Notes under the pieces: generated by a model | Databases searched by the model: none | What the model saw: only the letters and a program-made list of their open reading frames with translations | What the model was told of the DNA's origin: nothing | In this document: positions 2-64,000 of the stretch, piece after piece | Layout: every line of letters starts with the position of its first letter | Position numbering within the stretch: position 1 is the stretch's first letter | Made by a program: the position numbers and the translations under genes | Assembly (NCBI RefSeq): GCF_000186865.1 | Contig: NW_008705576.1 | Coordinates: 640,145-704,144, forward strand | Length of the DNA: 64,000 nucleotides | Source of the DNA: Aureococcus anophagefferens | Lineage: Eukaryota > Sar > Pelagophyceae > Pelagomonadales > Pelagomonadaceae | Direction of reading: 5' to 3'

Positions 2-3000
2 GTCTACTGCCAGTGCGCCGACCACGACCACTGCACGGCGGAGAACTGGCGCAAGTTCCTCCCGGCGGACCCGTCCTACTACGTGCTCCGCGTCGCCGCG
101 GACGGCGGCGACGCCTGCCCGCTCCTGCCGGAGGACCACGCGCGCGTCGAGTCCGGCGACTCGCAGCTCCGGAGGGAGGGCTGCGCGGTGCCCTTCGGCG
201 ACGGCTGCGAGGACGGCCGCTGCGACTCGGAATTGTCCAAGTTGGACGACGGTGCGGAGTCGTGCTACGACCACGGCCTGGAGATCGAGGCGGCCGTCCT
301 GGGCATGGGCGAGCCCTACAGCTCGCCCGCGGTCTTCGCCGAGCTCCCGCGCGTCGACGTCGCCGCCGTCGACCGCGCGGCCAAGGCGTCCCTCGCGCTC
401 GCCCTGGCCTGGCTCGCCGGCGCGCGCGCGGTCTGGGTGCTCCTCCCCTGGGCGGCGGCGGCGGACGACTGCGCGCTCGACCGCTGGACGTACGGCGACG
501 CGACGGAGACGACGGGCGCGTGGGCGGACCTCGTCGGCGTCGCCGGCGCCGGCGGCTGCTACGAGGCCGGCGCCGCGTGGAGCGCCGTCGCCGTCGCCGC
601 CGGCGACGCCGCCTACGACGACGACGCGAGCTGCGCCGCTCTGTGCGACGCGACGGACGGCTGCGACGTCTGGGAGCGCGGCCTCTTCTCCTTCGACGAG
701 TGCTGCGAGCTCAAGGCGGCGCGCGGGTCGCGGCCCGCGGCGACGCGGGGCTGGGCGTCCGCGGGCGCGGCGGCCTGCGCCGACGGCCGCCTCGCGCTCC
801 TCGACGGCCTCGAAGCGAGGACGCCCGGGGACGCGGACGTCGACGACGAGTGCTGGGTGCGGGGCCTGGGCTACGGCGCCGACGCGACGACGCCGGCCTG
901 CGGCGCCGCGGCGCTCCTGGCCGTGGCCGCGCCGGCGGCGACGCTGGACCTGGGCACCGCGCGGGGCTGGTGGGGCGGCGCGGCGCTGGCGACGACGGCC
1001 GACGACGACATGGCCGCGGCGGACTGCCGCGCGTTCTGCGTCGCGACGGCGGGCTGCGGCGGCTGGCGCCTGAAGCGGGGCGCGTGCCTCGCCTACGACG
1101 ACGTCGGCTGCGCGCCGTCCCTCGGCCGCATCTACGACTACGACGCGCCGGACGAGACGGTCTCCGGCGTGCCCGGCTGCGTGTCCGAGGACGACCTCGA
1201 GACGTCGTCGTGGTTCGACGAGTGCGACAGCCCGCGGTGCACGGAACCCGAGGGCGCGGGGCAGCGTCCTGTGGCGGTGACGATTTTCGAGAGATTTCGA
1301 CCGGGAAAACGAAGAGAAATCGTCATCGTGATGCTTGGTAGGCGCGGGATCCTACGTGGGCGACACGTTCCGGCCGGCCAGCGGCTGCTACTTCGCCGTC
1401 GTCGAGCGGCCCGCCGTCGTCGACTGCCTCGAGGGGACGTGGTTCCTCGTCAACGGCGGCTCGAACGCGCTGACGTTCTTCAAGTGGCTCGCGGACCAGG
1501 TGTCGCCGGACCTCGTGAGCATGGGCGACACCTTCGAGTCCGAGGTCATCGACGTCGTCTTCGGCGCGGGCGGCGACGTCGAGTACGTGTTCAAGGGGAG
1601 CCTCTGCTCCTTCGGCCCCGTGAACTGCAACTACGGCGGGTCGCTGTCGCCCGACGCCTGGGATTCGCGGCACCGCACGTCCGTCGCCGCGGCGCTCGCG
1701 GCGCCGGCGTACGTCGCCGGCGGCACGCGGATCACGCTCGTCGTCGCGCAGTTCTACGACCAGACGTCCATGGCGCTCGAGGGCGTCGCCGGCGCGACGG
1801 CCTGGGCCGGTGCGAACTTCGTCTTCTACACGCAGTGCATGATCTGGTACCCCTGCCACCAGCAGGGCTGGTGCTACGCGCCGCGATTGGGGTCGTCGTA
1901 CCTCGAGATCCGCGACGCGTTCGCGCGCGACGTCGACGCCGTCCTGGCCGTCGCGGAGCCCGTCTGCGCCCGGGCGAACGCCCACTGCTTCTTCGCGCCG
2001 GCGGCCTACAACACGCGGGCGTCGGGCGGCGGCCTGCCGGAGATCCTGAAGCCCAAGGTCGACGCGACGGCCTGGGCGCACCTCTGTGTGGAATTCAACC
2101 ACTGGTTTGGGTGGTCCTGACCAGACTTGAGGATTCTCTAGCTCGGTCAAATCGAAGTCGATTCGGCTGATTTTTGGACGGATCGATCGCTCTCGTCGAG
2201 TTCTCGAAGCCCAGCTGAAGAGCTTGTGTCAAAACATTCGAATACGCTCACATTGAAGTCGGGTTGAAGATTTGGTTTCGGCACAGGCGCACCTCATCGA
2301 CTGGACGGGCCTCGTCACGGACTGGATCCCCGAGGAGATCGTCGACGGCCACACGACGCCCTTCCCCCACATCACGGCCTACAACATGATCTGGAACACG
2401 GTCTGCGGCGACCTGCCGGCCGCGGGCTGCCCCGAGTACCTCGTCGCGGACAAATTATGCTTCGACGCGACGAACGGCGAGACGGGCGACTGGGTCATGG
2501 CGTCCGAGGTCGACTACTGCACCTACGCCAGGGTCGACGCCGTGCCCGTGTCCGTGAAGCTCCAGGCGCCGGCGACGGTCGCGGGCGCCGCGGGCCTCGC
2601 GGACTGCCTCTGGAACGCGCTCGGGCTCGGCGAGACCGGCGGCGCCTCCGGCTCCTCGAGCGCCAAGGAACTCTGCAAGCAGAAGAACCGCCTCTTCTGC
2701 GGCGGCGCCGGCGACGGCTGGGCGCTCGCGGGCGTGGGCTTCGGCGTCGCCGCGGCCCTCGCGGCCGCGGCGTTCTTCGCGGCGAAGAGGAAGCCGCCGC
2801 CCCGGCCCGAGGAGATGAAGGACGCCAAGGTCGCGCCCGTGGCCGTCGACGAGGCCAAGGAGGACCCCGCGCCCGCCACGCCCGTCGTCGTCGCGCCCTT
2901 CCGGCTCGAGCGGCTCGAGGGCCTGGGCCAGGGCAGCAAAAGAGAGCGAAATTCCCAACTTCAAAGGCTCCTATCTCGGCCGTTTTCCACTCGTTTTGGC

Positions 3001-5938
3001 TGATTTTTGGACGAGCGATCATCTCTCGGAACGGTCTCGAAGCGCGGATGCTTTTTCCGGAACGCGCACGCGCGGAACACTCACGTTGAAGCGACGTTGA
3101 ATCACCCTTTTGCTGCCCAGGCCTAGGCGGCGCGCGCTACGTCGCGTCGGTCCACATCGTCCTCGGCCACCTCTTCGCCAAGGGCGCCGTCGACGACGTT
3201 TATTTGTACGGCTGGGGCTACACGTGGGTGCCCTTCTTCTTCATGCTCAGCGGCTACGTGCTGGCCCACAGCCGCCTCGCGTCGCGGGACCCGTCCAAGG
3301 TCGAGCGCCCGACGACGTACCTCGCGAAGCGCCTCGCGACGGTCTACCCGGCCTACGCCGTCGGGCTCTTCCTAGCCCTCGGCGTGCGCGTCGCGCGCGG
3401 CGTGGCGCTGCCGGAGACGAAATGGATGCTGTACCAGGCCTTTCTGCTCCAGGCCTTCGACCCGCGCGCGACGGAGCAGGTCTTCCAGTTCCACTCAGGG
3501 CAGGACAAGGGTGATTCAACGTCGCTTCAACGTGAGTGTTCCGCGCGCGCGCGTTCCGAGAAAAGCATCCACGCGTCGAGGCCGTTCCGAGAGATGATCG
3601 CTCGTCCAAAAGTCAGCCGAAACGAGTGGAAAATGGCCGAGCTAGGAGCGCCTTTGAAGTTGGGAATTTCGCACTCTTGTCCTGCCCAGGTTCCACTGCT
3701 GGTTCCTGAGCTGCCTGGTGCCCTACTGGCTCCTCTTCGGGCCCGTCTACGCCAAAGTCCGCAACGCGAGCCTCGAGGCCTGCTTCGCCGCCCTCGTCGT
3801 GTTGAGCCTCATCCCCTGGCTCCTCGTCTTGGTGCCCGAGCTCGCGGACGAGGACAACGAGTGGTACCGGCGCCACGCGGTCGGCGACACGAGCTCCGCG
3901 ACGGATTTGTGGGTCGTCTTCCTCAAGTTCCACCCGCTCTGCTACTTCCACGTGTTTCTGTACGGCGTGGTCCTCGCGCGGCTCCGCGCGAACCTCAAGG
4001 CCGGCGCGGACGGCCCGCTCGCGCGGTTCCTCGGCGCCGTCGCGCGGGGCTCCGCGACGGCGGGCTTCGGCGGCCTGCTCCTCGTCTTCCTCGCGCGGGA
4101 CCTGCGGCCCGCGGCGCACAAGCTGAGCTGCCGCCTGTCGATCCTCATGCCCCTCCCAGGGCAGCAAAAGAGAGCGAACTTCCCAACTTCAAAGGCTCCT
4201 TTCTCGGCCGTTTTCCTACTCGTTTCGGCTGATTTTTGGACGAGCGATCGCCTCTCGGAGCGTGGATGCTTTTTCCGGAACGCGCGCGCGCGGAACACTC
4301 ACGTTGAAGCGACGTTGAATCACCCTTGTGCTGCCCAGGCCCCTCCAGGCCATGATCCTCGTGGGGCTGTCGCCCATCGACGCGGGCCGCGCGGAAGACC
4401 CGGTCGCCGCGGCCTTCGCGAAGCTGCCGGCCTTCTTCGGCGACATCTCCTACCCGCAGTACGTGCTCCAGTTCGTCGCCTACTCCTGCTGGCCCACCGT
4501 CGACGTCGACGTCGTCCCCTTCCTCCTCTACCTCACGGGCGGCTCGGCGCTGTTGGCCTACGGCGTCGTCAAGCCCGCCGCGGCGATCTGGCGCCGCTTC
4601 GCGGCGACGAGGCGGCGCGCGGCGATGCTTTTGGTCGCGCCCCTGGCCGTCGCCGCGGGGCTCGCTGCAGCCGCCGCGGCCTACGACGCCGATAAAGCGA
4701 AATCGTCGTCGTCGTCCGCGGCCGCCGGGGGCAACGGCACGAACGCGACGGTGTGGCTGGCCGCGGAGGCGCTCGACGTGCGCCTCAACTGGACGTCGTC
4801 GACGCGCGGCGCGCTCATCAACCCGAGCCTGCTCCTCGTGGACGGCGACATCGTCCGCGCGGCGCGCGCGCACGCGCTCCGGTCCGAGCGCGGCGAGGGC
4901 GCGTACCGCGTCCCGGGCGAGTCCTTCGTGCGCATCGTCGTCGAGGAGACGGCGTCCTGGAGCTCGGACATCGTCCTGGCCGCGGAGCCCTACGGCGGGA
5001 ACCTGTCCGCGCCGTTCGACGAGTGGCGCCTCTGGGACCTCGACGGGGCCTCGCGACGGGCGCGCCGGCGTCGCTGTCGCGCCCGAGCCTGCTGAGCCAC
5101 CTCGGCGACGGCGCGGCCTGGGGGGCGCTCTGCGAGCCCGTCGCCGCGTTCTACGAGGCCAACAACACGGTCGTGCGCAAGGTCGTCGGCGGCCCCGAGG
5201 ACCCCAAACTCGTCGCGCTCCCGGGCGGCGGCGCCTGGGGCCTCGCGTTCAACTCCTACCCGCCGAAGCACCTCGCGGGCAACTGCGACGGCAAGGCGCG
5301 GGCCGTGTCGCAGATGTACCTCGCGCGGAACGGCGCCGCGCTCGCGAGCGGCGACGACGCGCCGGCCGTGCGCCTCGCCTGCGGCGAGACCGAGGCCGAC
5401 GAGAAGAACTGGATCGCGCACGAACCGGCGTCCCTTTTGACTTCGCGCAACAACGGAAAAAACGCCATCCCTCTAGGCCTTCACGCACAACGACATGCTC
5501 CACTTCGTCTACAGCGTCCAGCCGCACGTCGTCGTCGCCGCGCGGCCCGGCGACGGCGCGTGCGTCGTGCGCCACGAGACGTCGTTCTCGCCCCTCGCGG
5601 CCGTCGCGGGCGAAGTCGCCGTGCGCGGGTCCGCGACGGCGGCGCCCTACGGCGGCAACTACCTCGCGCTGCTCCACACGCTCAGGGACGGCGCCTACGA
5701 GACGCTCGCCTACGAGTTCGCGGGCGCGCCGCCCTTTGGGATCACGCGCGTGTCGCGGCCCATCGAGCTCCAGGGCGGCGGCGCGGCGTTCCCCTCGTCG
5801 CTCCTCTACGCGCAGGGCAAGGTCGTGCTGGCCTACGGCGTCGACGACGCGTCGAGCCGCGCGCTGGTCATGTCCGCCGCCTACCTCGAGGAGCTGTTCG
5901 TCCAGGACGACGCCTGGTGCAACGCGACGGCGAGGTAG
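2..5938 (+). CDS. Mosaic membrane protein: Cys-rich/esterase-like ectodomain + acyltransferase-3 + beta-propeller domain (5' partial)
   Basis: Reading frame is open from base 2, so the 5' end lies outside. Proposed exons: 2-1253, 1342-2075, 2287-2920, 3121-3487, 3690-4148, 4339-5415, 5477-5938; every junction keeps phase. Exons 1-3 encode Cys-rich PAN-like segments (two clusters such as CRAFCVATAGC), then a possible PC-esterase/SGNH-like region (VNGGSN; later IVDGH), then one membrane helix. Exons 3-6 encode about ten hydrophobic helices with acyltransferase-3 signatures (VHIVLGHLF, FFFMLSGYVLA, RLATVYPAY, FHCWFLSCLVPYWLLF). The C-terminal part has NPSLLLVDGDIVRAAR, GPEDPKLV and KNWIAFTHNDMLHFVYS, resembling GH130-like beta-propellers. 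By analogy with CASD1/OafA proteins it may O-acetylate glycans in the secretory pathway (inference). A one-base break near 5,048 (G4 run) disrupts the last third. It could be two genes, but no stop separates the domains before that break. Confidence 0.68.
1254..1341 (+). other. 88-nt GC-AG intron flanked by a 7/8 direct repeat
   Basis: The frame upstream (…TEPEG) continues as GSYVGDTF if bases 1254-1341 are removed. The intron begins with gcgcgggg and is followed by gcgcggga, the same duplicated-8-mer layout as the introners. The interior (ttcgagagatttcgaccg, no family A or B sequence) is unlike either family, so it may be an eroded or third-family insertion. Confidence 0.6.
2076..2286 (+). 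mobile_element. Introner element, family B, copy B1 (sense, GC-AG)
   Basis: 211-nt intron. The left duplication gcgcacct (2076-2083) is repeated exactly at 2287-2294. The element begins CTGTGTGGAA and ends CGGCACAG, a degraded inverted repeat. Splicing GC…AG restores TAWAHLIDWTGL with no residue gained or lost. The internal core gctgatttttggacg is near the middle. Confidence 0.93.
2921..3120 (+). mobile_element. Introner element, family A, copy A1 (sense, GC-AG)
   Basis: 200-nt intron. Left duplication gcctgggc (2921-2928) versus gcctaggc (3121-3128), 7/8. The ends cagggcagcaaaag and cttttgctgcccag are near-perfect inverted repeats. Removal restores LERLEGLGGARYVASVHIV at the start of the acyltransferase domain. 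Confidence 0.94.
3488..3689 (+). mobile_element. Introner element, family A, copy A2 (antisense, GT-AG)
   Basis: 202-nt intron. The duplication gttccact is exact (3488-3495 and 3690-3697). The ends cagggcaggacaag and cttgtcctgcccag are inverted repeats. The body is the reverse complement of A1 and A3 in the same gene, yet splicing restores VFQFHCWFLSC exactly. The 5' GT comes from the duplicated target, the 3' AG from the element. Confidence 0.95.
4149..4338 (+). mobile_element. Introner element, family A, copy A3 (sense, GC-AG)
   Basis: 190-nt intron with an exact duplication gcccctcc (4149-4156, 4339-4346). The body matches A1 with a short internal deletion around 4,257. Removal restores SILMPLQAMILVGLS in an acyltransferase helix. 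Confidence 0.94.
5416..5476 (+). other. Short GC-AG intron, 61 nt
   Basis: Reading frame EKNWI ends at 5415 and AFTHNDMLHF resumes at 5477 after ccctctag. There are no inverted repeats and no clear target duplication, so I treat it as an ordinary spliceosomal intron. Reading through gives the implausible peptide AHEPASLLTSRNNGKN. Confidence 0.6.
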
Positions 5939-7045: not shown

Positions 7046-7091
7046 TGCGCGCGCGAGCAGGTGTTCTTCATTTGAAGCCCCGTGTGGTCCT

Positions 7092-18530: not shown

Positions 18531-18607
18531 GTGTCGTGGCTAGCGTCACACGTTACTGAACAGGTTGATGAGTTGTGTTGTGGCTAGTGTTACACGTTAC
18601 TGAACAG
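18531..18607. repeat. 44-bp-period tandem duplication of a gene's 3' end
   Basis: Copy 1 at 18531-18563 and copy 2 at 18575-18607 (gtgtYgtggctagYgtYacacg…ctgaacag) differ at three positions. Copy 2 contains the last codons and stop of the methyltransferase gene on the minus strand; copy 1 is a downstream duplicate in which the stop-codon bases have changed. Confidence 0.85.
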
Positions 18608-19279: not shown

Positions 19280-19345
19280 CAGGTTTTGCCACTCCACCAT
19301 CGCGCTTCGCCTACTGCCTCGCCGACCTCAAATAAAGGCTGCAGC

Positions 19346-36574: not shown

Positions 36575-36740
36575 GGTCGGCGGCGCAAACGGGCGGTCTC
36601 GCCGGCGGCTTCTTGAGGTCACGATCGTCAAGGTGCCGCGTCGGGGCAGCCCCTGCGAGTCTGGGCCATCCAAGAGCGCGCGCCGCCGGAGCTGGGCATC
36701 CACGCTGGCCGTCCTGCGCGGGCCGGCGCCGGCGCCGGCG

Positions 36741-44459: not shown

Positions 44460-44630
44460 GGAACTCTTATGATGAACGGGCCTCGGTCGTCGCCGACCAC
44501 ATCCCGCCGCCCGTCCTGAGCCTCGCGCTGCTCTGAGGAACTCTTATTGTGAACGGGTCGCGGTCGTCGCCGACTCGGACCACATCCCGCCGCCCGTCCT
44601 GAGCCTCGCGCTGCTCTGAGGAACTCTGAT
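44428..44630 (+). repeat. Triplicated 3' end (periods 77 and 83 bp)
   Basis: Three copies of a unit starting at about 44428, 44505 and 44588, each containing cgccgcccgtcctgagcctc then ctctgaggaactct. Copy 1 encodes the protein's C-terminus and stop; copies 2 and 3 repeat it with the following spacer (gaacgggYcKcggtcgtcgc). Copies 2 and 3 differ by a 6-bp insertion. Confidence 0.9.
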
Positions 44631-44767
44631 TAAAACCCCGGCGGACCGGGCCGAAAAACGGGGGGAAGATGCGAGGCGAGGGGCCGGGGCGGCGGCGCGC
44701 GGGAGATCAAACCCGCGCGCGGCGAGCGCGCGCGGCGGCGGCGGGGGGAGACGGGTGGAGAAGCGGG

Positions 44768-46857
44768 CTAGCGGCGCGAGCCGATGGTGCGGCCGCCGCC
44801 GCGCGCGAGGGACTTGGGCTTGGCCTTGATGGACTGGCACTTGGGGATGTGGCGCTCCGCGGCCTTCTCGTTGAACGTGCGCGAGCAGTGCGGGCACTGG
44901 ACGAAGGACGGGTCGGGCGTCGACGCGACCATGGGCGGCGGCGGCTTGCCCGCCTTCTCCGCCGCGGCGACGCCGCGCATGGCCTGCATGGCCTCGCGGA
45001 GCTGGTTCGACTGGGCCTTCCACTTCTTGTCCTTGCCGCCCGGCGCGGCGGCGCCGCCGTCGCGGTCCTTGCGGCGGAGCTCTTTTTTGACCTCGGCCGC
45101 GGCCTTCTTGACCATCTGCTTCTCGTCGCCGTCGAAGCCGTCGGCGCGGTGCGCCGCGGCGTTGAAGGTCTTGCGCGCCTTCTTCGGCGCGCACTTGGGG
45201 CAGCACCGCTGGCCGTGGCGCTTCTCGAGGCCGTCGAGCGCCCTCCGCGTCATCGCGCGCCCGCAGACGACGCAGGCGTCGTCGAGCTCCGCGGCGCCGC
45301 CGTCGGGCGCCGCCGACGCGTCGGCGGGCACGGCGCCGTAGCCGCCCGTCGGCCGGCTACCGCCGCGGTCGTCTGCGTCGCGCGGCTGGCTCTTCGGTTT
45401 CGCGTGGCCGTCGTCGCGGCGGTGCGCGTCGTCGCGGCGGCCGTCGTCGTCGTCGTCGTCGGAGCGGTCGCCGCGCGCGGACTTGGGCTTCCAGAGCGTG
45501 CGGTGCCGCGACTCGCTGTCGGGGCCCTTGGTCGCCGCGGGGAGCTTCGGCGCGGCCGCGCCGGTCCGCCGCGGCGGGCTCCGGTCGTCGCGGTTCGGCG
45601 CCGCGGGCCGCGTCCACGTCGACTCGCCCCGGGCCTCGTTGCGGTAGAAGACGTTGCCCGTGCGCCGGTCCGTGTGCTGCGTCCAGCCCGGCGGCAGCGC
45701 GCCGGCGCCGTCGTCGCGGCGCCGCGGCGACTTGGGCTGGCGCGGCTCGGCCCGCCGCCGGGGCTGCTCCGCGGGCGCCTCGTCGCCGTCCGGGGCGTCG
45801 TCCTCGACGGCGAAGTTGTCGTTCCACTCCGGGCGGCGGCCCGCGCGGCGGCCCGTCGTCCGCGCGCGCGACGCGTCGCGCGCGGCGGCGCCGTTCGTCG
45901 AGCTGTCGCTCTCGTTGCGCGCGAGCTCGAGGACCTCCGACGCGGACCGCGTGCGGAGCTCGGCGTCGGACGGGTCCTTGTTGCGCTTCGACCGCATGGA
46001 GAGCTTGAGGTTCGAGAGGCTGTCGGAGCCTGGGCAGGACAAGAGTGCGAAATTCCCAACTTCAAAGGCTCCTCTCTCGGCCGGGTTCCACTCGTTTCGG
46101 CTAATTTTTGGACGAGCGATCATCTCTCGGAGCGCTCTCGACGCGTGGATGCTGTTTCCGAAACGCGCGCGCGCGGAACACTCGTGTTGAAGCGATCTTG
46201 AATCACCCTTTTCCTGCCCTGGTCGGAGCGGTCGGAGCGGCCCTCGCCGGACGTGCCCGCGCGCGACGACCCGTAGCCGTAGGCCGCGTCGGCGTCGCTC
46301 GCGGCGTGGCCGCTGTAGCGCTGGAGGAGCGTCGACACGCGCCGCGCCTGGGAGCCCGTGAGCGACCGCCGCTTCAACACGTCGAGCCAGCCCTCGAACT
46401 CGGCCTCGGACATGGGCGCGTCCGCGGGCTCGGCCCGCGCGGTCGACCGCGGCTCCGTCATGTCCCGGGGCAGGTCGCGCCGGCCGGGCGTCGACCGCGG
46501 CTGCGACACGGCGCCGTTCTCGCGGAGCGGCGCGTTCTCGACGTCGTCGGCGCAGCCGGGCGGCTTGACCCACGTCGTCTTGCCGGAGCCCGCGTGGTGG
46601 TAGTAGGGCTTGCCCGTCTTCTTGTCCGTGTGCATGGTCCAGCCGGGCGCGACCTCGCGCCGCGGCCGCTTGCCCGCGGACTTCTCCGCCGCGTTCGCCG
46701 ACCGGCCCGCGAGCTCGTCGAGGCTGTCGCCGCCGCCGTCGGCCGCGTCGTCGCCGCCGCCGCGGTTCCGCCGCGTGGCGCGCATCTCGTTGGCGCGCGC
46801 GATGCTCTCCTGGCGCTGGCGCGCGTAGTCGCTCGGGTCCACGCGCGGGCCGGGCAT
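44768..46857 (-). CDS. WW-domain and C2HC zinc-finger protein
   Basis: Exons complement(44768-46029, 46230-46857), 629 aa from Met 46857 (frame open to 47067). Two WW domains: PGWTMHTDKKTGKPYYHHAG followed by SGKTTWVKP, and PGWTQHTDRRTGNVFYRNEA followed by RGESTWTRP, one in each exon. A CxxC…CCPKC finger (CVVCGRAMTRRALDGLEKR) and a C-terminal C2HC finger FVQCPHCSRTFNEKAAERHI-PKC of the ZC2HC1 type. The rest is Arg/Asp/Ser-rich and disordered. WW domains bind Pro-rich ligands; a role in RNA processing or scaffolding is a guess. Introner A7 lies between the WW domains and the frame is restored exactly. Confidence 0.82.
46030..46229 (+). mobile_element. Introner element, family A, copy A7 (antisense to a minus-strand host, GC-AG)
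   Basis: 200-nt intron. The duplication gtcggagc (plus strand, 46022-46029 and 46222-46229) is exact. Read on the host (minus) strand it begins GCTCCGAC-cagggcaggaaaag and ends cttgtcctgcccag. Splicing restores EGRSDRSDSLSNLK. Confidence 0.94.
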
Positions 46858-47369
46858 GGCGCGGCGCCGCGGCGAGCACGCCGGGGTGCCCAACGGCTCG
46901 CGGACCGCCGGGGGTTGGACCGGCGGCGCTGCCCCGGCGGCGGCGTCGGGCGACGGCAGCGCTGCCCCGGCGAGGACCGAGTCGTGCGTCTCCGGCGTCG
47001 GCTGCCCGGTGCGGGCGCGTCGGCGGCAGCGGCGGCGGGCAAACAAAACCTCGGCCTGCCACAACAAAAGCCCTGGCTCGGTGAGCGATCAGTTGGAGGA
47101 ATTGCCACAAGAGCCCGTGACGGAGCGCAATCAGGCTGTGGCGCACGGCGTAGCAATGATGAGGTTTTCAAGTTTCTAAAAGTTTGGTGGCTCGGAGCCA
47201 AAGGTCAAAATTTACCCCGCATTCTGGTGCGGATTTCCCACCAGCGCGTTTTGGCTGTGAGCTGCATCTAAGCCGCATTGGATTTCGTCAGGGACCCGCG
47301 CAGCCGCAGCCGATGGACTGAGGGGAGGGGACTGAGCGGAGGAACTTCTACACGACGCAGAGACACACG
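46858..47369. other. Divergent intergenic region, WW protein / MYND protein
   Basis: 512 bp. The minus strand stays open to 47067 and could extend the WW protein with a low-complexity N-terminus. The part at 47,050-47,260 is less GC-rich. No repeat or RNA gene recognised. Confidence 0.4.
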
Positions 47370-51961: not shown

Positions 51962-52396
51962 GGTCGCTGGCTGTTGCGACGGCGCGTCTGTGCCGCAGCG
52001 GTCGGGGCGCTCGGCGCGCGGGCGGCGGACTCGGGGGTGCAGGCCGCGTCTAGCCGCGAGGCCGCAATGCCACTGCTCGCCGACGTGTTGCCACAGCATC
52101 CCAAACACACACCGTCACCCCATTCATTGGTCTGGCTTCGGCTCTGCAGAACGTACTCGCCCGACCGAGTTGATAATCTCGCGCCCCGACGTACTACCTG
52201 GCATTCACGGGACCGCGCAGCACGACCTCACACGTGCGTTGCACCTCGTCCCGCCCGCCGCGCGCGTCCTCCGCCGCCCCCTCGTTGAGAGAATCACACC
52301 GAACATCATTTCTGCGCCGCGGCCGCACCCGCGCGCGGATCCACGTATCCACCCGCTCCCGCAGGCGCTGCGACACATCGCACACCAACTCAAAGG
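51962..52396. other. Divergent intergenic region, Suv3-like / UPRT fusion
   Basis: 435 bp. The minus frame stays open to 52108. The part at 52,100-52,330 is of mixed composition with no recognised gene, repeat or element. Confidence 0.4.
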
Positions 52397-55116
52397 ATGA
52401 GCCTCCACCGCTTGGGCCTCTGCGGCTGCGACGACAGCGTGGACCCGAGCCTGCTGAGCGCGATCGCGAGCCGGTGGCCGCGCGCCGAGTTCGGGGTTTT
52501 GTTCCGCCCCGGCCGCGAGGGCGAGCCGCGCTACCCGACGCGGGCCTGGCTCGAGACCTTCGCGTTGGCCGGGTCCAAGACGTCGCCGCCCATGCAGCTC
52601 GCGGGCCACCTCTGCGGGTCCGCGGTCGACGCGGTGCTAAAAAACGGCGACGTGTCGTTCGTCCGCGACACGCTCGTGCCCTACGGCTTCCGGCGCGTGC
52701 AGCTCAACGCGACGGCGACGAACGGCTGCGAGACGGCCCGGGACGCCAGGGCCATGGCGGCGGCCGCCGTCGCGGTCCGCGCGGCGTGCGACGCCGTGCC
52801 CGAGGTCGAGTGGATCGTCCAGGCCAACGACGAGACGAAGCCCCTCTGGGAGACGCTGTTGGACGAGGGCGACGTGCCGGCGAACCTGTCCATGCTCTGG
52901 GACGCGTCCTGCGGCAAGGGCGTCAAGATCGACGCGACGCGCGTCGGCGACGCGCGCGCGACGGGCGTGCCCGCGGGCTACGCGGGCGGGTTGAACCGCG
53001 AGAACATCAAGGAGGTGCTGGCGGCGCTGCGGTCCGGCGTCGCCAAGGGTCGTAGCATCTGGATGGACATGGAGACGGGCCTGCGGTCCATCATCGACGA
53101 CGAGGAGCGCTTCGACGTCAACAAGGCCTGGGCCGTCTGCGCGGCGGTAGACGACGGGGCGGGAAAAGGGTGATTCAACGTCGCTTCAACATGAGTGTTC
53201 CGCGCGCGCGCGTTTCGAAAACGGCACCCACGCTTCGAGAGCGCTCCGAGAGATGGCCGCTCGTCCAAAAATCAGCCGAAACGAGCGGAAAACGACCGAG
53301 AGAGGAGCCTTTGAAGTTGGGAATTTCGCACCCTTTTCCCGCCCAGGTCGACGACGCGCGGTGGGACGACCCCGACGGCGGCGTCGCCGACGTCGTCTTG
53401 AAGGACGTGCCGAAGAACGCGCGCATGTCGGGCCACGCCGTGCTCGCGCACAAGGTGACGCTGCTGCGCGACCGGCGGACGAAGCCGCGGGAGTTCCGCG
53501 ACATCCTGGGCGAGCTCACGCACTACGTGGGCTACGAGGCGACGACGCACCTCGACTGCGTGCCGCGCCACGACTGCGTGACGCCCCTGGGCGTCCACGT
53601 GCCCGCGGGCGACGGCGCGGCGACGCGGCTCGCCGCGCGCGTGTGTTTGATTCCCATCATGCGCGCGGGGCTCGGCATGGTCGACGCGATGCTCAACGTG
53701 CTGCCCAACGCCGCCGTCTTCCAGATCGGCATGTTCAAGCGCCAGGGGTCGGACCGCCCCATCGAGTACTACTCGCGGCTGCCCGTGTCCGGCGGCTCCG
53801 AGTGCGACGTCGCGTTCATCTTGGACCCCGTCATCGCGACGAGCCGGACGATGCAGCCCGTCGTGTCCAAGCTCAAGGCCTGGGGCGCGCGGCGTATTGT
53901 GGTCGTGTCCGTGCTGGCGTCGGCGGCGGGCCTCGACGCGCTCCACGCGGCGCACCCGGACGTCGACGTGCACCTCGTGCAGGTCGACGGCCGCCTCGGC
54001 CGCGACGGGGGCCTGCTGCCGGGCCTCGGCGACGCGGGCGACCGCATCTTCGGCGCGCCGGGGTCCCAGGCGGCCATCGCTTTGGGCCGCCACGACAAGT
54101 ACCAGTGGGAGGAGGCCGGCGACGCGAAGAAGCGGCCGCTGCGGAAGGCGCCCGGGTCGCCCGGCGTCGTCAAGAAGCGGCGCCACAAGCTCGACGAGCC
54201 GTCGACGGCCGTGCTCGGCGACATGCGGGGCGACGCGCCGCCGGCGGACATCCCCGACGCCATGCAGTGCGAGTCCCTCGACGAGACGGCGACGCAGCTG
54301 ACGACGCACGACGGCACGTTCGGCCCCCAGCCGTGCCACCTCGCGTGGGGCGAGAAGTCGTCCGTCGCGCGGGGCCCCGTGCTCGCGACGACGCGCCACA
54401 CGTTCCAGCGCAACGCCATCGGCGCCCACGCCGGCGGCTACAGCATCTACCGCGCTTTGGCCGTCGCGTCGGGCGGTTTGGACCAGGCGGCGATGCCGAA
54501 GTTGGGGCTCACGACGCCCGCGGCGAAGATCGGCCCCCACCTCTCCTGGAAGAACCCGAAGCGCATCGTCACCATGGACCCCTGGGGCCACGCCATCTCC
54601 GAGGGCTTCGGGCCCTGGCTCAACAAGGGCTACGACGTCCGGCCCACCATCGCGATCACGAAGGCGCACGTCGAGCTGCCCGAGTGCAAGGAGGCGTTGC
54701 GCTCGGGCCGCCTCGTGCCCGACGGCGACATCCTCGAGGAGTCGGGCACGTCCGTCGTGACCAAGGCGGCCATCGAGCCCGTGTGGTACCTGCCGGGCGT
54801 CGCGGAGCGCTTCGGGGTTTCGGAGCGCGTGCTCCGCGACGCGCTCTTCGCGGAGACCAACTCCATGTACCCGGAGCTCATCTCCCGCGACGACCTCAAG
54901 GTCTTCCTGCCGCCCATCGGCGGCATGACGGTCTACATCTGGGGCGACGTCGAGAAGATCCCCGACGAGTCCGTCGAGCTCACGTGCCGCGTCCACGACG
55001 AGTGCAACGGCTCCGACGTCTTCGGCTCCGACATCTGCACCTGCCGCCCCTACCTCACGCACGCCATCGAGGAGTGCATCAAGACGGCGCAGCGCGGCGG
55101 CACGGGCGTCGTCGTC

Positions 55117-55159
<43 letters not shown>

Positions 55160-55786
55160 ACCTCGTCTACAACATGCGCAAGCGCCAGGAGGGCGGCGAC
55201 AAGGCCGCGGAGTACTTCAACTGCACCCAGTCCGTCGCCGGCATCCAGGACACGCGCTTCCAGGCCCTCATGCCCGACGTGCTCCACTGGCTCGGCATCA
55301 CGAAGATCCACAACTTCATCTCCATGTCGGACATGAAGTACAACGCGATCACGTCCGCGGGCATCACCGTCGAGAACCGCATCGAGCTGTGTGGAAATCA
55401 AATCTTCGACCCGACTTCAATGTGCGCGTAATCGAACGGTTCGGACCAGCTTCTTCGGCTGAGCTTCGAGAACCCGACGAGAGCGATCGATTCGTCCAAA
55501 AATCAGCCGAATCGACTTCGATTTGACCGAGATAGAGAGTTCTGAAGTTTGGTGGGGACCCCCCAAACCAGTGGTTGATTTCCACACAGGCATCGAGATC
55601 CCGCCGGAGATGGTCCCCAAGGACGCCCAGGTCGAGATCGCCGCCAAGGTCTTCCACGGCTACCACGCGGGCAAGGCCTACGACGGCATGGACGAGCAGA
55701 AGCTCGACACCGTCGTCGGCCGCATCTACAAGCCCGACAAGACGGCCCAGCGCGTCGACAAGGCCGGCAAGAAGAAGGGCAAGTAG
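52397..55786 (+). CDS. Triple fusion: TIM-barrel (PRAI-like) + uracil phosphoribosyltransferase + GTP cyclohydrolase II/URC1-like
   Basis: Exons 52397-53146, 53347-55378, 55590-55786; 992 aa. Domain 1 (residues ~1-250): RLGLCGCDDSVDPSLLSAIA, PMQLAGHLCGSAVDAVL, QLNATATNG and AGGLNRENIKEVLAALRSG, resembling phosphoribosylanthranilate isomerase barrels. Domain 2 (~255-480): LRDRRTKPREFRDILGELTH, LIPIMRAGLGMVDAMLNVLP and DVAFILDPVIATSRTM, a UPRT of the Upp type (PRPP loop D-P-x-x-A-T). Domain 3 (~560-960): GCHII-like with the zinc ligands in HDECNGSDVFGSDICTC (C-x10-C-x-C) and YFRKEGRALGEVTKYLVYN. Fungal URC1 (GCHII-like) and URC4 (UPRT-like) act together in uracil catabolism, so this may be a single-chain uracil-catabolism enzyme. 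Exon junctions fall at domain linkers. Confidence 0.88.
53147..53346 (+). mobile_element. Introner element, family A, copy A8 (antisense, GT-AG, GGGCGGG end type)
   Basis: 200-nt intron. Duplication gtagacga (53147-53154) versus gtcgacga (53347-53354). Ends cggggcgggaaaaggg / cccttttcccgcccag pair perfectly apart from the outer bases. Splicing restores AVCAAVDDARWDDPDGG at the barrel/UPRT linker. Confidence 0.94.
55379..55589 (+). mobile_element. Introner element, family B, copy B5 (antisense, GC-AG)
   Basis: 211-nt intron with an exact duplication gcatcgag (55379-55386, 55590-55597). Ends ctgtgtggaaatc / gatttccacacag are perfect inverted repeats over 13 bases. Splicing restores VENRIEIPPEMVPKDAQ near the C-terminus of the cyclohydrolase-like domain. 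Confidence 0.96.
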
Positions 55787-59304: not shown

Positions 59305-61851
59305 ATGGCGCGGCATCGGGGGGCGATGCTCCGTATCCTCGCCTTGCTCCGTATCCTCGCCTTGCTGCCGACGCAGGTTCGCTCAAAAACGTGGCACATC
59401 GCCTGCGTCGGCGACTCTGTCACGGCCGGCGGCCACGGCGGCGGCGACGGCTGGCCCGAGTACCTCGAGGAGGAGATCGACGACTCGGACCTCTTCGGGG
59501 GCGACAAGGTCAAGGTCCACAACCTGGGCAAGTCCGGGACGACGGCCATGGACGACACGGGCCGGGCCTACGCCGACAGCGACGAGTACGACGACCTGAA
59601 GAAGACCGACTTCGACCTCGCGATCGTCACCCTCGGCACGAACGACGCGAAGGAGGACCACTGGGACGAGAAGCGGTTCAAGAAGGACTACGAGAAGCTG
59701 CTCGAGAAGATCATGGACATGGGCGACGACGTCGCCCTGGGTTTCCCCGTGCCCTACCTCGGCGGCCACGGCACGTGGGGCGACGACACCGACGTGATCA
59801 ACGACGACCTCCAGGACGCCGTCGAGGACGTCGGCGACGACCTGGACATCACATACTACGTGGACTTCTTCGAGGCCCTCGGCGGCGACGACCCCGAAGA
59901 GAAATACTACCACGACAAGATCCACCCGAACAAGAAGGGCTACGCGAAGATGGCGGACGCGGCCTTCAAAGTCGTCGAGGACTGGGCGGACGCGAACGTA
60001 GCCCCGAAGCCCACGAGGCGGCCCACGCCGCGGCCCACGCCGCGGCCGACGCCCGCGCCGACGCCCGCGCCGACGCCCGCGCCGACGGTCTGCCTGGAAG
60101 TCGACGCGCTGGCCTGCGTCGCGAACGTGCCGTGCGCCGTGTCCTGGACCTACCGCGGCGGCGGCGGCGCCTGCGCGACGGTGAAATACGTCCTCGCGGG
60201 CCCCGACGGCGCCGTCGTCGAGTCGCGGACCGTGGGCAACGACGGCGCCTTCTCGCGGACGTTCCCCGGGACCGACGACCCGTTTACGTTGTCGGTCGCG
60301 TGCGCCGACGGCGCGTGCGCGGCCGCCGCCGTCGACGTCGCCGTGTCCTACACGCCCGCGCCGTCCTTCGCGCCGTCCGCCGCGCCGTCCGCCGCGCCGA
60401 CGCCGACGCCGAAGAAGTCGTCGGGCGGCGGCGGCGGCGACGCGACGGTCGTCGCGGCGGCCGCGTCCGTCGCGTCGCTCGCCCTCGTCCTCGGCCTCTG
60501 CTGCCTCGCGCGCAGGCGACTGTGCCCCGGCAAGGGCTACGCCGAGGCGCCCGCCTTCTCGCCGCGGCGCCAGGTCAAGAAGAACCCCTTGTTCGCGTCC
60601 CCGGCGCCCGCCGAGCGCGAGGCGTTCGACGAGGCAAAGGCCGACGTGGAGTTGGCGCCGCGGCGGCTCGACCTCGACGGCGCCGCCCCCGCCCCGGCGA
60701 AGAAGCCCTGGCGCTTCTCCCTGTCGCCGGCGCGGCCCGCGCGGAAGGAGGGCGACGCGCCCCGGGACGCGGGCGCCGCGGCGCCGCCGACGTCGCCGCC
60801 GCCGCCGAGCTGGCTGCGCGGCTTCTCGCCGCGGCGCGGCATCGGCGCCCGCCGGCAGGAGCCGTCGCCCATGGCGCCGTCGCCCCCGCCGGCGCCGCCG
60901 GCGCCGAGCCCGCCGCCGCTCGCGCCGGGGACGCCGACCTTCTTCAACTTCTCGCCCAAGCGCGTGCGCCGGCCGTCGCCGCGACGCGCGGCGTCGCCCG
61001 CGTCGCTCGACGAGGCCGCGACGCCCGCGTCGCTCGACGAGGCGGCGCCGCGGGCGTCGCTCGACGAGGCGGCGCCGCGGGCGTCGCTCGACGAGGCGGC
61101 GCCGCGGGCGTCGCTCGACGAGGCGGCGCCGGCGCGCGCCGGCTCGCGCGCGTCGCCGCCCGTCTCGCTCGACGGGTCCCGCGCCGGGCCGTCGCCGCCG
61201 CCGCCGCCGCCGCCCGCCATGTCGCCGCCCCGGGGCCCGCTGACGCCCAACTCGCTCGCCTGGTGGACGCGGCTCTCGCCGAGGCAGATCCGGCGCAAGG
61301 CCGCGCCGGCGGCGGAGGCGTACGTGTCGCCGCCCGCGGAGACGCCGCCGCGCCGGAGCTCGCTGGGCTACTCGCCGGACTCGGACGTTTCGAAGCACTC
61401 GCCCCTGGGCCTCGCCTTCAACCTCGGCCGCAAGGAGTCGCTGTCGCTCTTCAAGAAGTCGCCGTCGTCCCCCGCGGATCCGGACCTGGACGCGCTCTAC
61501 GAGCGGGCGGGCGCCGGCGACGGCGCGGCGGCGCTCGAGTGGGCGACGTCGACGGCGTCGGACGACCGCGGGGCCCGGGCGCCCGAGGTCCGCGCCGCGG
61601 CCCTCGCCTTCCAGGCGAGCTTCAAGAGCCTCGAGGAGCGGCGCGCGGCGGCCGCCGCGCCGCCGGCCGGCGGCGGCGCGCTCGCCGACGCGTGCGCGGA
61701 CTTCAAACGCGCGATCTCCGAGGACCCGCGCGACGTCGCGAAGCACCGGTCCGCCGCGCTCGGCCTCTTCGCGAGCTTCAAGAGCCTCGAGGAGCGGCGG
61801 GCCGGCGGGCCCGCGGACGCGCCCGCGGGCTCGCCGACCTACGAGCTGTAA
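59305..61851 (+). CDS. Membrane-anchored SGNH/GDSL hydrolase with repeat-rich cytosolic tail
   Basis: 848 aa from Met 59305. Signal peptide (LRILALLRILALLPTQVRS), then an SGNH hydrolase: IACVGDSVTAGG (nucleophile Ser in GDS), NLGKSGTTAMDD (Gly block), LAIVTLGTNDAKED (Asn block) and YYHDKIHPNKKGYAKMADAA (catalytic Asp/His). A TPRPTPAPTP mucin-like linker, an Ig/beta-sandwich-like segment (PCAVSWTYRGGGGACATVKY), another Pro/Ser stretch, one membrane helix (AAAASVASLALVLGLCCLAR) and a ~330-residue cytosolic tail with five ASLDEAAPR-type repeats and two SFKSLEERRA repeats. A cell-surface esterase is the likely role. Intron-free. Confidence 0.88.
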   Translation: MARHRGAMLRILALLRILALLPTQVRSKTWHIACVGDSVTAGGHGGGDGWPEYLEEEIDDSDLFGGDKVKVHNLGKSGTTAMDDTGRAYADSDEYDDLKKTDFDLAIVTLGTNDAKEDHWDEKRFKKDYEKLLEKIMDMGDDVALGFPVPYLGGHGTWGDDTDVINDDLQDAVEDVGDDLDITYYVDFFEALGGDDPEEKYYHDKIHPNKKGYAKMADAAFKVVEDWADANVAPKPTRRPTPRPTPRPTPAPTPAPTPAPTVCLEVDALACVANVPCAVSWTYRGGGGACATVKYVLAGPDGAVVESRTVGNDGAFSRTFPGTDDPFTLSVACADGACAAAAVDVAVSYTPAPSFAPSAAPSAAPTPTPKKSSGGGGGDATVVAAAASVASLALVLGLCCLARRRLCPGKGYAEAPAFSPRRQVKKNPLFASPAPAEREAFDEAKADVELAPRRLDLDGAAPAPAKKPWRFSLSPARPARKEGDAPRDAGAAAPPTSPPPPSWLRGFSPRRGIGARRQEPSPMAPSPPPAPPAPSPPPLAPGTPTFFNFSPKRVRRPSPRRAASPASLDEAATPASLDEAAPRASLDEAAPRASLDEAAPRASLDEAAPARAGSRASPPVSLDGSRAGPSPPPPPPPAMSPPRGPLTPNSLAWWTRLSPRQIRRKAAPAAEAYVSPPAETPPRRSSLGYSPDSDVSKHSPLGLAFNLGRKESLSLFKKSPSSPADPDLDALYERAGAGDGAAALEWATSTASDDRGARAPEVRAAALAFQASFKSLEERRAAAAAPPAGGGALADACADFKRAISEDPRDVAKHRSAALGLFASFKSLEERRAGGPADAPAGSPTYEL
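61000..61134 (+). repeat. 27-bp coding tandem repeat, five copies
   Basis: Units start at 61000, 61027, 61054, 61081 and 61108 (gcgtcgctcgacgaggcggc then gccgcgg), encoding ASLDEAAPR-like nonapeptides. The first unit is the most diverged; the next three are identical. Length polymorphism is likely. Confidence 0.92.
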
Positions 61852-61876
61852 TCACATTTAGCCTCGGGGCCCGTTC

Positions 61877-64000
61877 TCAGGAGCGCCAGGCGCCGGCGTC
61901 GTCGACGAAGTTGAGGGGGTCGTCCTGGGCGAGCGCCGGCTCCGCGAAGAAGTCCGCGCGCGTCCGGAGGAACGCGTCGCCTGCGGAGCGCAGCGGCGAG
62001 TGGTCCGGCCGCGCGGCGTGGGGCGTCGCGCCGCGGAGGCCGTCGTAGTCGCCGCCGTCGACGCTCCGGTGGACTCGGGGCCGCTCGGGCCGGTGGCCGC
62101 CGTGCTCGCGGACGAACTTGAGGAAGTCGCGGTAGTCGACGTAGTCCGGGTCGTTCGGCCGCGCGAAATGGGCCGCGAGGTCCCCAATGTCCGCGTCCGT
62201 GAGGTCCAGGTCCAGCGCCGCGAGCGCGTCGGCGAAGTCGCGCGCCGGCAGGAGGCCGTGGCCCGCGCGGTCGCCCATCGTGAAGGGCAGCAGGACGTCC
62301 AGCCCCCGGCGCTGCTGGTCGCCGAGCTTGTCCGCGACGTGGCGCGCGAGGAACGTGAGCTCGTTGTAGTCCTGCTCCGCGAAGCGTATGAAGTCGCGGT
62401 AGTCGACGCAGTCGCCGTATTTGTCGAAGCGCCGCGATATGGCCCGCGTGTCCTGCGCGCTCAGGTTCAGCGAGTGGAGCACGTGGAGGAAGTCGGGCGA
62501 CTCGACGACGCCGCGGCCCCGGCGGTCGAAGCGCTCGAAGGCGCGCTCCAGATCCACGGGGCCGCCGTAGCGTAGACGCAGGTCCTTCAACGCGGCCCGC
62601 AGGCGCCGCGCGACGTCGCCCATCTGCGCGTCGCCCGCGAGCGCCGTCGGCGGCGGCCGGCGCCGGTCCCCGTCGTACCCGAGGCTCGCGCGCGACGCGC
62701 GCGCGTCGTCGTCGCGGAAGCGCGCGGGCGTGCGGACGTAGGGCGTCTCCGGCGCGTAGGTCTCCTCTTCCTCCGGCGCCTGGCCGTAGTGGAGCAGCCA
62801 CTCGTAGAGCGTCTCGTAGTCCACCAAACCGTCCGCGCCCGCGGTGCAGTCGAGCACCGCGGCCCGCTCGTCGTCGAAGAGCAGCGGCCCGTCGGCCAGC
62901 AGCCACTCGCCGAGGTCGTCCAGGCGTCGTCGAAGCCGTCGACGTCGACGGCGCCGACGCGGCGCCGGTCGACGTCCGCGAAGAGCTCGTGGAATCGCGG
63001 CCCGCCTGGGCAGGAAAAGAGAGATTCAACGTCGCTTCAACGTGAGTGTGCCGCGCGCGCGCGTTCCGGAAAAAGCATCCACGCTTCGAGACCGTTCCGA
63101 GAGATGATCGCTCGTCCAAAAATCAGCCGAAACGAGTGGAAAACGGCCGAGATCGGAGCCTTTGAAGTTGGGAATTTCGCTCTCTTTTGCTGCCCCGCGG
63201 CCCGCCGCGCCGCGCGGACGCCGCGCACGCGTCGAAGAGCTTGGCGCAGGCGGCGCCGAAGAGGCGCCGGGCCTGCTTCGGGGGCTTGCGCGCCGGCTCG
63301 GGCCGGCGCGCGACGCGGCGCGCGGGCGCCTCGCTGTCGAGGACCCGCTCGAGGAATAGCGCGTAGTCGGACCGCGGCGGCGCCTTCTTCTTCGCCGACG
63401 CCGCGGACGACCGGCCCGCGGGCTCCTCGACGCGGAGCGCGTCCAGGAGCTCCTCGAGGTCCAGCGGCGCGAGCTCCGAGGAGATGCCCGTCCAGCGGAG
63501 CGCCTTCTCGAGCGCCGCCTGCTTGCAGCAGCCGTCGCGGCGCCGGTCGTGGCGCACCAGATACTCCGCGACGTCGCGCACGATGTCCCCGTCGAGCGAC
63601 GCGCCGGACCGCGCCGCCGCCGCGTTGGCCCGCGCCAGGATCGCGTCGCGGCCGTGGGCGTGGGCGACGACGGCGCGGTCCAGCGCCAGCGACAGGAGCT
63701 CGTCGACGTCGACGCCCTTGCCCTCGTCGTCGTCGAAGAACTCGTAGAGGCCTCTCACGTCCGCGGCGTCGAGCGCGTCGAGGCCCTCGTCCAGGGGGAA
63801 CACGTCCAGACGGTGGAGCGCGACGAGGAACTCGTCGGCCGTCAGGCGGCCGTCGCCCTCGCCGTCCGCGCCGCGGAACGTCGCCACGACGACGTCGCGC
63901 CGCCGCTCCTCCAAGACCCGGCCCACGGCCGCGAGCTTCGCGTCCAGGAGCCGCGAGCCCGTCGTCGACGCGACGGCGCCGTCGACGGGCGCGAGGAAGG
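61877..64000 (-). CDS. Multi-EF-hand calcium-binding protein (5' end outside the window)
   Basis: Exons complement(61877-63005, 63206->64000); the frame is open to the right edge. Several EF-hand-like units: VVVATFRGADGEGDGRLTAD-EF, LYEFFDDDEGKGVDVDELL, ELFADVDRRRVGAVDVDGF, LERAFERFDRRGRGVVESPD-F, RAISRRFDKYGDCVDYRDFI and AAHFARPNDPDYVDYRDFLK. Many loops keep Asp at positions 1 and 3; others are degenerate. A Ca2+ sensor or structural repeat protein is expected. Introner A9 interrupts it with the frame restored, but about 75 bp further on (near 62,930) the frame shifts by one base. Confidence 0.75.
63006..63205 (-). mobile_element. Introner element, family A, copy A9 (sense to a minus-strand host, GC-AG)
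   Basis: 200-nt intron. The duplication cggcccgc (plus strand, 62998-63005 and 63198-63205) is exact. On the host strand it begins GCGGGCCG-cggggcagcaaaag and ends ctcttttcctgcccag. Splicing restores ARRGGPRFHELFADVD. Confidence 0.94.

Follow-up and report, generated by a model that had tools for sequence, protein, structure and literature searches.

The question raised by this locus is whether 14 short, near-identical insertions in genes of Aureococcus anophagefferens are introns and, if so, where each obtained its two splice sites. Repeat and BLAST searches of the 64-kb stretch analysed here (the window; the whole genome is 49 Mb with 71% GC) recovered 14 copies belonging to two related element families with a common homologous core. 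They are the same copies that a sequence-only reading of this DNA had divided into nine of a family A, here the CAGGG-type family (starts 2929, 3496, 4157, 20155, 38746, 39445, 46030, 53155 and 63006), and five of a family B, here the CTGTG family (starts 2084, 34775, 37473, 37850 and 55387). An Rfam search of the window at gathering scores gave no match. Both families have terminal inverted repeats of 15 to 16 bp with some mismatches, and the 8-mers flanking the copies are identical at 8/8 in eight cases and at 7/8 in six. A duplication of fixed length, 8 bp at at least 7/8, thus accompanies 14/14 copies, whereas a random pair of 8-mers from this coding DNA matches at this level with a p of ~0.0014. 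Intron lengths across all 14, counted from the initial G of the left 8-mer through the element's terminal AG, were 190 to 211 nt, mostly 200 and 211. The copy numbers, 8-mer identities and length range of the earlier reading were all reproduced, as was its placement of the copies in seven genes on both strands (five on the plus strand and two on the minus strand).

The flanking repeats suggest that a transposase cut the exon with an 8-bp stagger, so that the element would be inserted with the target 8-mer on both sides. The terminal AG of the element would then adjoin the right copy, and the left copy would begin with GC or GT. Splicing from the left G to the element's AG would remove one copy of the target together with the element and restore the original mRNA. 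A transcription-based route has been reported for the first Micromonas introner elements (PMC3443670, in the portion available), and spread through RNA, whether excised introns were reverse spliced or a different transcription-based route was followed, would agree with copies lying almost only at splice-competent positions. It would account neither for the 8-bp flanking duplications nor for the terminal inverted repeats. Moreover, both families were inserted in both orientations, with the body antisense to the gene in 4/9 CAGGG-type and 2/5 CTGTG copies in the window, whereas reverse splicing should give sense copies. We regard spread through RNA as scarcely credible.

Seven host genes carry the predicted introns. 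Gene 1 (1332 to 5092, plus strand; limits of the open frame) has an acyltransferase 3 domain and forms an open frame of 986 aa without introns 1 to 4. Intron 1 (2076 to 2286; GC donor, phase 0) consists of the target copy GCGCACCT and a CTGTG element at 2084 to 2286, followed by the right 8-mer at 2287 to 2294. The next three contain CAGGG elements: intron 2 (2921 to 3120; GCCTGGGC, element 2929 to 3120, right 8-mer 3121 to 3128 at 7/8; GC, phase 1), intron 3 (3488 to 3689; GTTCCACT, element 3496 to 3689, body antisense to the gene; GT, phase 2) and intron 4 (4149 to 4338; GCCCCTCC, element 4157 to 4338; GC, phase 2). Gene 2 (19094 to 20529, plus), a DUF1295 protein with an open frame of 412 aa without intron 5, is interrupted at 20147 to 20346 by GTGCTCGC and a CAGGG element at 20155 to 20346 (GT, phase 0). 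The serine hydrolase-like gene 3 (33000 to 35472, plus; 754 aa without intron 6), the 5' part of which looks noncoding by eye, carries intron 6 at 34767 to 34977 (GTGAGGAA, right copy 7/8; CTGTG element 34775 to 34977 with a mutated left end; GT, phase 0). Gene 4 (36093 to 40464, plus) encodes a PIP5K-domain protein with an open frame of 1186 aa without introns 7 to 10. Two of these contain CTGTG elements, intron 7 (37465 to 37675; GCTCGCCG, right copy 7/8; element 37473 to 37675; GC, phase 1) and intron 8 (37842 to 38049; GCGGGTCG, right copy 7/8; element 37850 to 38049, body antisense; GC, phase 2), and two contain CAGGG elements, intron 9 (38738 to 38932; GTCGAGAT, element 38746 to 38932, body antisense; GT, phase 0) and intron 10 (39437 to 39636; GCGCGGCG, right copy 7/8; element 39445 to 39636; GC, phase 0). 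On the minus strand, gene 5 (44771 to 47088; 706 aa without intron 11; two WW-like motifs by eye) contains intron 11 at 46030 to 46229 (GCTCCGAC, CAGGG element 46030 to 46221, body antisense to the gene; GC, phase 1). Gene 6 (52289 to 55783, plus), a UPRTase-GTP cyclohydrolase fusion with an open frame of 1028 aa without introns 12 and 13, carries intron 12 at 53147 to 53346 (GTAGACGA, right copy 7/8; CAGGG element 53155 to 53346, body antisense; GT, phase 0) and intron 13 at 55379 to 55589 (GCATCGAG, CTGTG element 55387 to 55589, body antisense; GC, phase 1). Gene 7 (62590 to 63998, minus), EF-hand-like by eye and with a frame slip downstream, is open over 403 aa without intron 14 (63006 to 63205; GCGGGCCG, CAGGG element 63006 to 63197; GC, phase 1).

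The sequence-only reading had held that excision restores phase and a continuous protein in all 14 cases. Codon usage was scored in six frames over 300 bp on either side of each predicted junction, and the same strand and phase were obtained on both sides in 12/14. The two exceptions are attributable to longer flanks reaching a neighboring intron and a nearby frame slip: copy 37850 agreed in strand and phase with a 164-bp flank, and copy 63006 agreed with flanks of 90 and 150 bp, not with 210 bp. With these shorter flanks, the claim holds throughout. Pfam matches also extended across introns 3 and 4 of gene 1 and, as a DUF1295 match, across intron 5 of gene 2.

Public proteins were compared over 21-residue windows at the junctions, and 7/14 junctions were crossed gap-free with 19 to 21 identities out of 21: introns 2 to 4 by P0128, introns 7 and 8 by P0121, and introns 12 and 13 by P0001. 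These three proteins have the source "ena" with the molecule type unstated, and DNA without the insertions, a possible source, would equally show exact restoration. P0128 is 94% identical and perhaps comes from another strain or species. Three relatives from transcript assemblies (P0002, P0007 and P0008; MMETSP, Trinity) were gap-free at both gene 6 junctions, with 8 to 13 identities out of 21. Other comparisons were not gap-free. In gene 6, this applied to 6/11 relatives at intron 12 and to 1/11, a fragment, at intron 13; in gene 4, to P0122 and P0123 at each of the four junctions and to P0121 at introns 9 and 10; and in gene 1, to P0128 and P0131 at intron 1. P0121 runs into intron 9 and stops there; therefore, either intron 9 can be retained or two of the three insertions are absent from the source of P0121. 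Restoration of the original mRNA, and with it the proposal that the element supplies the 3' splice site and the duplicated target the 5' site, is supported by sequence and frame in 14/14 cases and by public proteins in 7/14, and we infer splicing in RNA at the 14 junctions from these.

These data also bear on the notion that the copies are ordinary small transposons, imprecisely removed, in genes that are damaged or spliced elsewhere. Retention would indeed break the genes, since 13/14 lengths cannot be divided by three and the one that can, that of the 195-nt copy at 38746, comes with an in-frame stop, and one retained copy is seen in P0121. Against this, the frames run on at the predicted sites in 14/14 cases, seven junctions are matched by public proteins, and seven different genes would need identical breakage, which makes this explanation very improbable. 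We consider it highly probable that all 14 are spliceosomal introns made by the insertion of a short nonautonomous DNA transposon.

A whole-genome search with both elements found other copies. The 15-bp end of the CTGTG family had 774 exact matches, including those in the window (reversed control, 0), and the 28-bp left end of the CAGGG family had 1,248 (control, 0). The flanking 8-mers agreed at at least 7/8 in 8/9 complete copies from sampled stretches outside the window, a count that leaves out four partial copies, and in 7/7 copies at loci L002 to L008. For all 15 of these duplicated copies outside the window (8 sampled and 7 from L002 to L008), one reading or both show G-Y. The copy at L031 matched at 2/8 at the strict position, with a 2-bp offset by eye (1/13 complete CAGGG copies examined).

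The donor dinucleotide in the window was GC in 9/14 introns and GT in 5/14. Genome-wide, G-Y preceded the exact CTGTG ends (n = 774) at position -8 in 467 cases and G-R in 45, and 44 of these 45 finish in RC, so that they read as the right end at a G-Y target. In the CAGGG family on contig C1, G-Y stood at -8 in 69/72 non-AG ends (A or G at base 2), compared with ~14 expected (p = 2e-44), and was missing from 3/72. That G-Y lies 8 bp beyond the upstream end throughout the genome may reflect the loss of most insertions into targets without a leading G-Y toward the AG end. Alternatively, G-Y at target position 1 could be a target preference of the transposase that splicing merely exploits. The near universality of G-Y (the 69/72 and 44/45 above) agrees with such a preference, as neutral insertions elsewhere should give more exceptions. 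However, the CTGTG ends are alike on both sides, so a palindromic target would be expected, and the observed bias is one-sided: CAGGG-family 8-mers show no constraint at positions 3 to 8 comparable to that at positions 1 and 2, and R-C at positions 7 and 8 was found in 29/93, against ~21/93 from base composition there, a slight excess at most. A target preference is therefore unlikely in our judgment, and loss of unspliceable insertions is the reading we favor.

The two ends of the elements differ in a way that relates to the direction of splicing. CTGTG elements form AG at both ends and would be usable in either direction. In the CAGGG family, the non-AG end is CAGGG or CGGGG and the opposite end is CTGGG; paired copies on C1 had exactly one AG end in 45/45, and in the window the AG end lay at the 3' splice site in 9/9, whichever the orientation of the body. 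With the AG end taken as the 3' side, the body would be antisense in 17/45 of the C1 pairs. Subterminal base 17 was linked to polarity on C1 (20/24 versus 6/49; p = 4e-9), and a mostly inherited polarity is therefore favored. When 13 CAGGG bodies were placed in a tree after removal of 18 bp per end, three of the five T-type copies grouped (support, 81) and two fell elsewhere (support, 43 and 71), so the tree leaves separate lineages of the two polarity types undecided. The element and splice model of the sequence-only reading stood as claimed, but it had left out the predominance of GC donors, the rule-bound asymmetry of the CAGGG ends and the core common to both families.

No donor signal was visible beyond G-Y at positions 1 and 2, and there was no GTRAGT signal. 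The use of GC and GT as donors differs only ~2.4-fold from their supply in exons, and a further G-Y lies inside 72/93 donor 8-mers. The requirements of the borrowed site are apparently small. It is possible, and we put it forward tentatively, that distance rather than sequence sets the 5' splice site, in that the spliceosome would accept whatever G-Y stands exactly 8 nt ahead of the element end. The element end's own sequence would then do the locating, and other G-Y dinucleotides in the 8-mer would be passed over. As part of the same tentative proposal, in the CAGGG family, one base at one end, linked to the subterminal marker, would set the direction of splicing and give two polarity subfamilies. 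A search for an altered U1 snRNA, the donor-recognizing RNA, gave no match; no control matched either, so this was uninformative.

hAT elements make an 8-bp duplication, and both of their ends start with Y-A-R-N-G. The window families resemble MITEs of the hAT superfamily in the 8-bp duplication and in the CAGGG or CGGGG non-AG end of the CAGGG family, and they differ from them in the T at position 2 of the CTGGG end and in the CTGTG-family ends; the Y-A-R-N-G pattern is thus not present at both ends, and no matching autonomous hAT was found. Profile searches of the genome for hAT, KDZ and MULE transposases, combined with end checks, revealed no mobilizing transposase with matching ends. The hAT dimerization domain gave four matches of 22 to 24 bits (family cutoff, 21.4; no control matched), with no convincing introner-like ends near these loci. 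KDZ had no match in the genome, which is uninformative since no control matched, and MULE had none although its controls matched. Among candidate autonomous partners, L014 and L015, two near-identical 5.4-kb copies, were rejected, their ends lying near tandem repeats and lacking a terminal inverted repeat. L016, one of the four dimerization-domain matches, with a hAT-like open frame of 1,217 aa, a zinc finger and a sub-threshold DUF4371 match, was rejected for want of convincing introner-like ends within the 10 kb examined, where the locus edge truncates a CTGTG copy. Two wide pairs of opposed CTGTG ends on C1 (357296/361794 and 2651791/2652535) were discarded as longer elements since the 8-mers on their outer sides do not match each other exactly; this check covered the first 100 of the 774 matches, and a mutated pair would escape it.

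The earlier statement that introners with transposon-like ends are established in Aureococcus and Micromonas agrees with the literature, where the mechanism is published. In the available portions of PMC10228655, PMC9481584 and PMC7789003, A. anophagefferens introner elements are described with terminal inverted repeats, direct repeats, co-opted splice sites and both orientations, the same traits as those of the window copies, the families being likened by description only. Their characteristic length is ~210 bp (PMC9481584), compared with 200 and 211 nt for most window copies, and canonical splicing motifs are reported (PMC7789003), in contrast to GC donors in 9 of our 14. DNA insertion likewise co-opts splice sites in the green alga Micromonas pusilla (PMC10228655; compared by description). 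According to the accessible part of PMC9860276, Symbiodinium microadriaticum introners have terminal inverted repeats, an element-borne 3' site and a 5' site from the duplicated target, as in the window, although their duplications are 4 bp rather than 8 bp. Introner family 4 of an Aureococcus sp. TARA MAG, described there, has a duplication of the same 8-bp size in an Aureococcus relative, but it brings both splice sites with it and lengthens the mRNA by 12 bp, whereas the window copies would restore the mRNA exactly. The introner traits of many near-identical introns at unrelated positions and of one carried splice site paired with one borrowed from the target duplication were both found here, the former as 14 introns in seven genes and the latter by sequence and frame. 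Since intron birth from DNA transposons is already established, this locus illustrates the process cleanly and is not in itself a discovery; what it adds is that the borrowed donor seems to need so little.

In 2011, 39.6% of A. anophagefferens introns were reported to be GC-AG and were called "an enigma" (PMC3033335, in the part available). A borrowed donor that needs only G-Y may be the source of these introns. We did not find this explanation in a literature search that included the available parts of PMC3033335, PMC9860276, PMC7789003, PMC10228655 and PMC3443670; Huff et al. (2016) may contain it. Distance measuring together with transposon-made introns, if true, would explain both the GC-AG excess and the reported low information content of splice sites in A. 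anophagefferens. Were G-Y at a set distance sufficient by itself, one could test whether the GC-AG excess arises as a by-product of transposition into GC-rich exons, and the system would be a natural test of the minimal 5' splice site.

BLAST and a repeat search recovered the 14 introner copies that the sequence-only reading had placed in the 64 kb. Boundary analysis reproduced the flanking 8-mers of the target duplication, identical at 8/8 positions in eight copies and at 7/8 in six, and also the intron lengths: starting at base 1 of the left 8-mer and running through the terminal AG of the element, each intron spans 190 to 211 nt. The two families, CAGGG (nine copies) and CTGTG (five copies), have a homologous core in common, in that each family's HMM detected all window copies of the other (E-values of 1e-10 to 2e-7 for the CAGGG HMM against the CTGTG copies and of 2e-10 to 8e-6 for the reverse comparison). 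The GC content of the window, 71%, fits an Aureococcus strain, as do the intron length and the identity of gene 6 to a Chrysophaeum taylorii protein (below). At 44411-44647, a unit of 77-83 bp is present three times in tandem, copies 2 and 3 being 84% and 73% like copy 1; a 44-bp unit occurs twice at 18531-18614, and a tandem array of a 27-bp unit lies at 60966-61217.

The phenomenon is already known, since PMC10228655, PMC9481584, and PMC9860276 describe such introners. PMC10228655 credits Huff et al. 2016 with the findings that introners of Micromonas pusilla and A. anophagefferens co-opt splice sites and that they insert in both orientations, in agreement with the earlier statement that introners are established in both genera. 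The characteristic A. anophagefferens length is given in PMC9481584 as about 210 bp. PMC9860276 describes introner families that supply their own 3' site and use the duplication as the source of the 5' site, as do the window copies; there, GC donors make up 0 to 50% per family.

In order to assess the reading frame, coding strand and phase were scored separately to the left and right of each junction. Phase was restored at all 14 junctions, as had been claimed, at 12 with 300-bp flanks and at the other two with shorter flanks. At the 37850 junction the frames agreed with a shorter flank; they disagreed at 300 bp because no more than 166 bp of exon separate this intron from its neighbor. At the 63006 junction agreement was obtained with flanks of 90 and 150 bp and was lost at 210 bp because of a slip in the coding frame at about 62906-62931. 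This slip, of about one base, lies in gene 7 (minus strand), some 75 to 100 bp past intron 14, and could reflect either a true frameshift or a mistake in the assembly.

Pfam comparison took in five of the seven host genes (1, 2, 3, 4, and 6), whose joined frames encode, respectively, an acyltransferase-3, a DUF1295 protein, a serine hydrolase, a PIP5K-domain protein, and a UPRTase-GTP cyclohydrolase fusion. By eye, genes 5 and 7 contain WW-like and EF-hand-like motifs, respectively. The acyltransferase match of gene 1 (residues 460 to 793) extends across introns 3 and 4, and intron 5 falls inside the DUF1295 match of gene 2. In gene 6 (52289-55783), an N-terminal region that matches nothing in Pfam is fused to a UPRTase domain and to the N and II domains of GTP cyclohydrolase, the GTP cyclohydrolase II match stopping at about intron 13. 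Full-length relatives of gene 6 were found in Chrysophaeum taylorii (67% identity) and in several transcriptome entries.

Public protein relatives were sought for genes 1, 4, and 6. P0001 is 99% identical to gene 6 across all 992 residues queried, P0121 is 98% identical to gene 4 over 51% of 898 residues queried, and P0128 is 94% identical to gene 1 over residues 301 to 972. These proteins are gap-free at introns 12 and 13 (P0001), 7 and 8 (P0121), and 2, 3, and 4 (P0128), with 19 to 21 identities per 21-residue window. Thus, 7 of the 14 junctions are matched, five of them with GC donors. The source of all three is given only as "ena," so they could derive from cDNA or from insertion-free DNA. 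P0121 continues into intron 9 and ends at the stop codon expected of a retained intron, the only reading obtained for that intron. Among 11 relatives of gene 6, 10 were gap-free at intron 13 and 5 at intron 12. Intron 5 has its Pfam match besides frame and repeats; for introns 1, 6, 10, 11, and 14, the evidence consists of frame and repeats only. P0129, a predicted protein related to gene 1 and encoded on a different long contig, is missing six residues just ahead of intron 1 as well as parts near other junctions, a pattern suggesting that gene calling shunned GC donors. Annotation at GC introners in such genomes may be wrong.

Further copies exist elsewhere in the genome for both families, as the sequence-only reading required. 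The CAGGG left end occurs at 1248 places and the right end at 1112, and the 15-bp CTGTG end is exact at 774 places in the 49-Mb genome (0 for the reversed control). Exact end patterns are biased toward young copies with few mutations. CAGGG ends were listed completely for contig C1, where 45 copies had both ends matched, the partnerless ends (28/73 left and 19/64 right) being left out. Base 2 of the paired ends was A/T in 21 copies, T/A in 15, G/T in 7, and T/G in 2; exactly one end thus yields AG in 45/45. Leaving aside three right ends in which base 2 is C, 72 C1 ends have A or G there, and 69 of these have GC or GT (G-Y) eight bases outside the element (position -8); 14 would be expected, since G-Y makes up 20% of dinucleotides in window coding DNA. 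The three exceptions include locus L031, whose duplication looks offset by 2 bp. Among complete copies outside the window, 8-mers matched at ≥7/8 in 8/9 from the sampled stretches and 7/7 from L002-L008 (four partial copies in the samples and one in L005 were left out), and G-Y is present in one or both readings of all 15.

The two ends of the CTGTG family are alike, so about half of its exact ends are expected to be downstream ends, with an outer 8-mer complementary to the target. Position -8 was G-Y in 467 of the 774 and G-R in 45, with no G in the remaining 262. In 44 of the 45 G-R cases, the outer 8-mer terminates in R-C, equivalent to G-Y when read from the opposite strand.

The CAGGG-family AG end lies at the 3' splice site in 9/9 window copies, whereas the body points either way (antisense in 4/9); on C1, counted without regard to gene strand, AG lies at the body's opposite end in 17/45. 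Copies unable to splice seem nearly absent. Neutral insertion anywhere would leave 80% of ends without G-Y; with 3/72 observed, roughly 5% of copies at most would lie at unconstrained places. A transposase preference could also place G-Y at the target, but the signal is one-sided, with R-C at 8-mer positions 7 and 8 in only 29/93 and thus no clear palindromic counterpart, which argues for selection on splicing.

hAT elements generate an 8-bp duplication and have a CAGGG-type end. The introners resemble them in both respects but differ in having T at position 2 in the CTGTG-family ends and in one CAGGG-family end. The splice-site AG may have been gained when a hAT-like end gave up its A. No autonomous element with ends matching the introners was found among the genome's transposase candidates. 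One candidate, L016 (contig C6, minus strand), is an uninterrupted open frame of 1217 aa that includes a zinc finger, a subthreshold DUF4371 match, and hAT dimerization matches; no convincing introner-like ends were found near it. L014 and L015 (contigs C1 and C13) share a 5.4-kb block at 99% identity that contains a hAT-dimerization-like frame, with tandem repeats close to its ends.

Donors were GC in nine and GT in five window copies, GC in 54 and GT in 39 for the CAGGG family on C1, and 22 of each in 44 readable CTGTG right ends. Since GC exceeds GT by 3.3 to 1 in coding DNA of the seven host genes, the preference for GT on C1 is only 2.4-fold. Positions 3 to 8 of the 8-mer lack a GTRAGT signal (A at position 4 in 14/93 and T at position 6 in 13/93), and 72/93 donor 8-mers contain a second G-Y. 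PMC3033335 reports 39.6% GC-AG introns in A. anophagefferens and the greatest information deficit of 61 species, and terms the origin of the GC-AG introns an enigma. We infer that introners co-opting any exonic G-Y would yield both the GC-AG excess and the information deficit.
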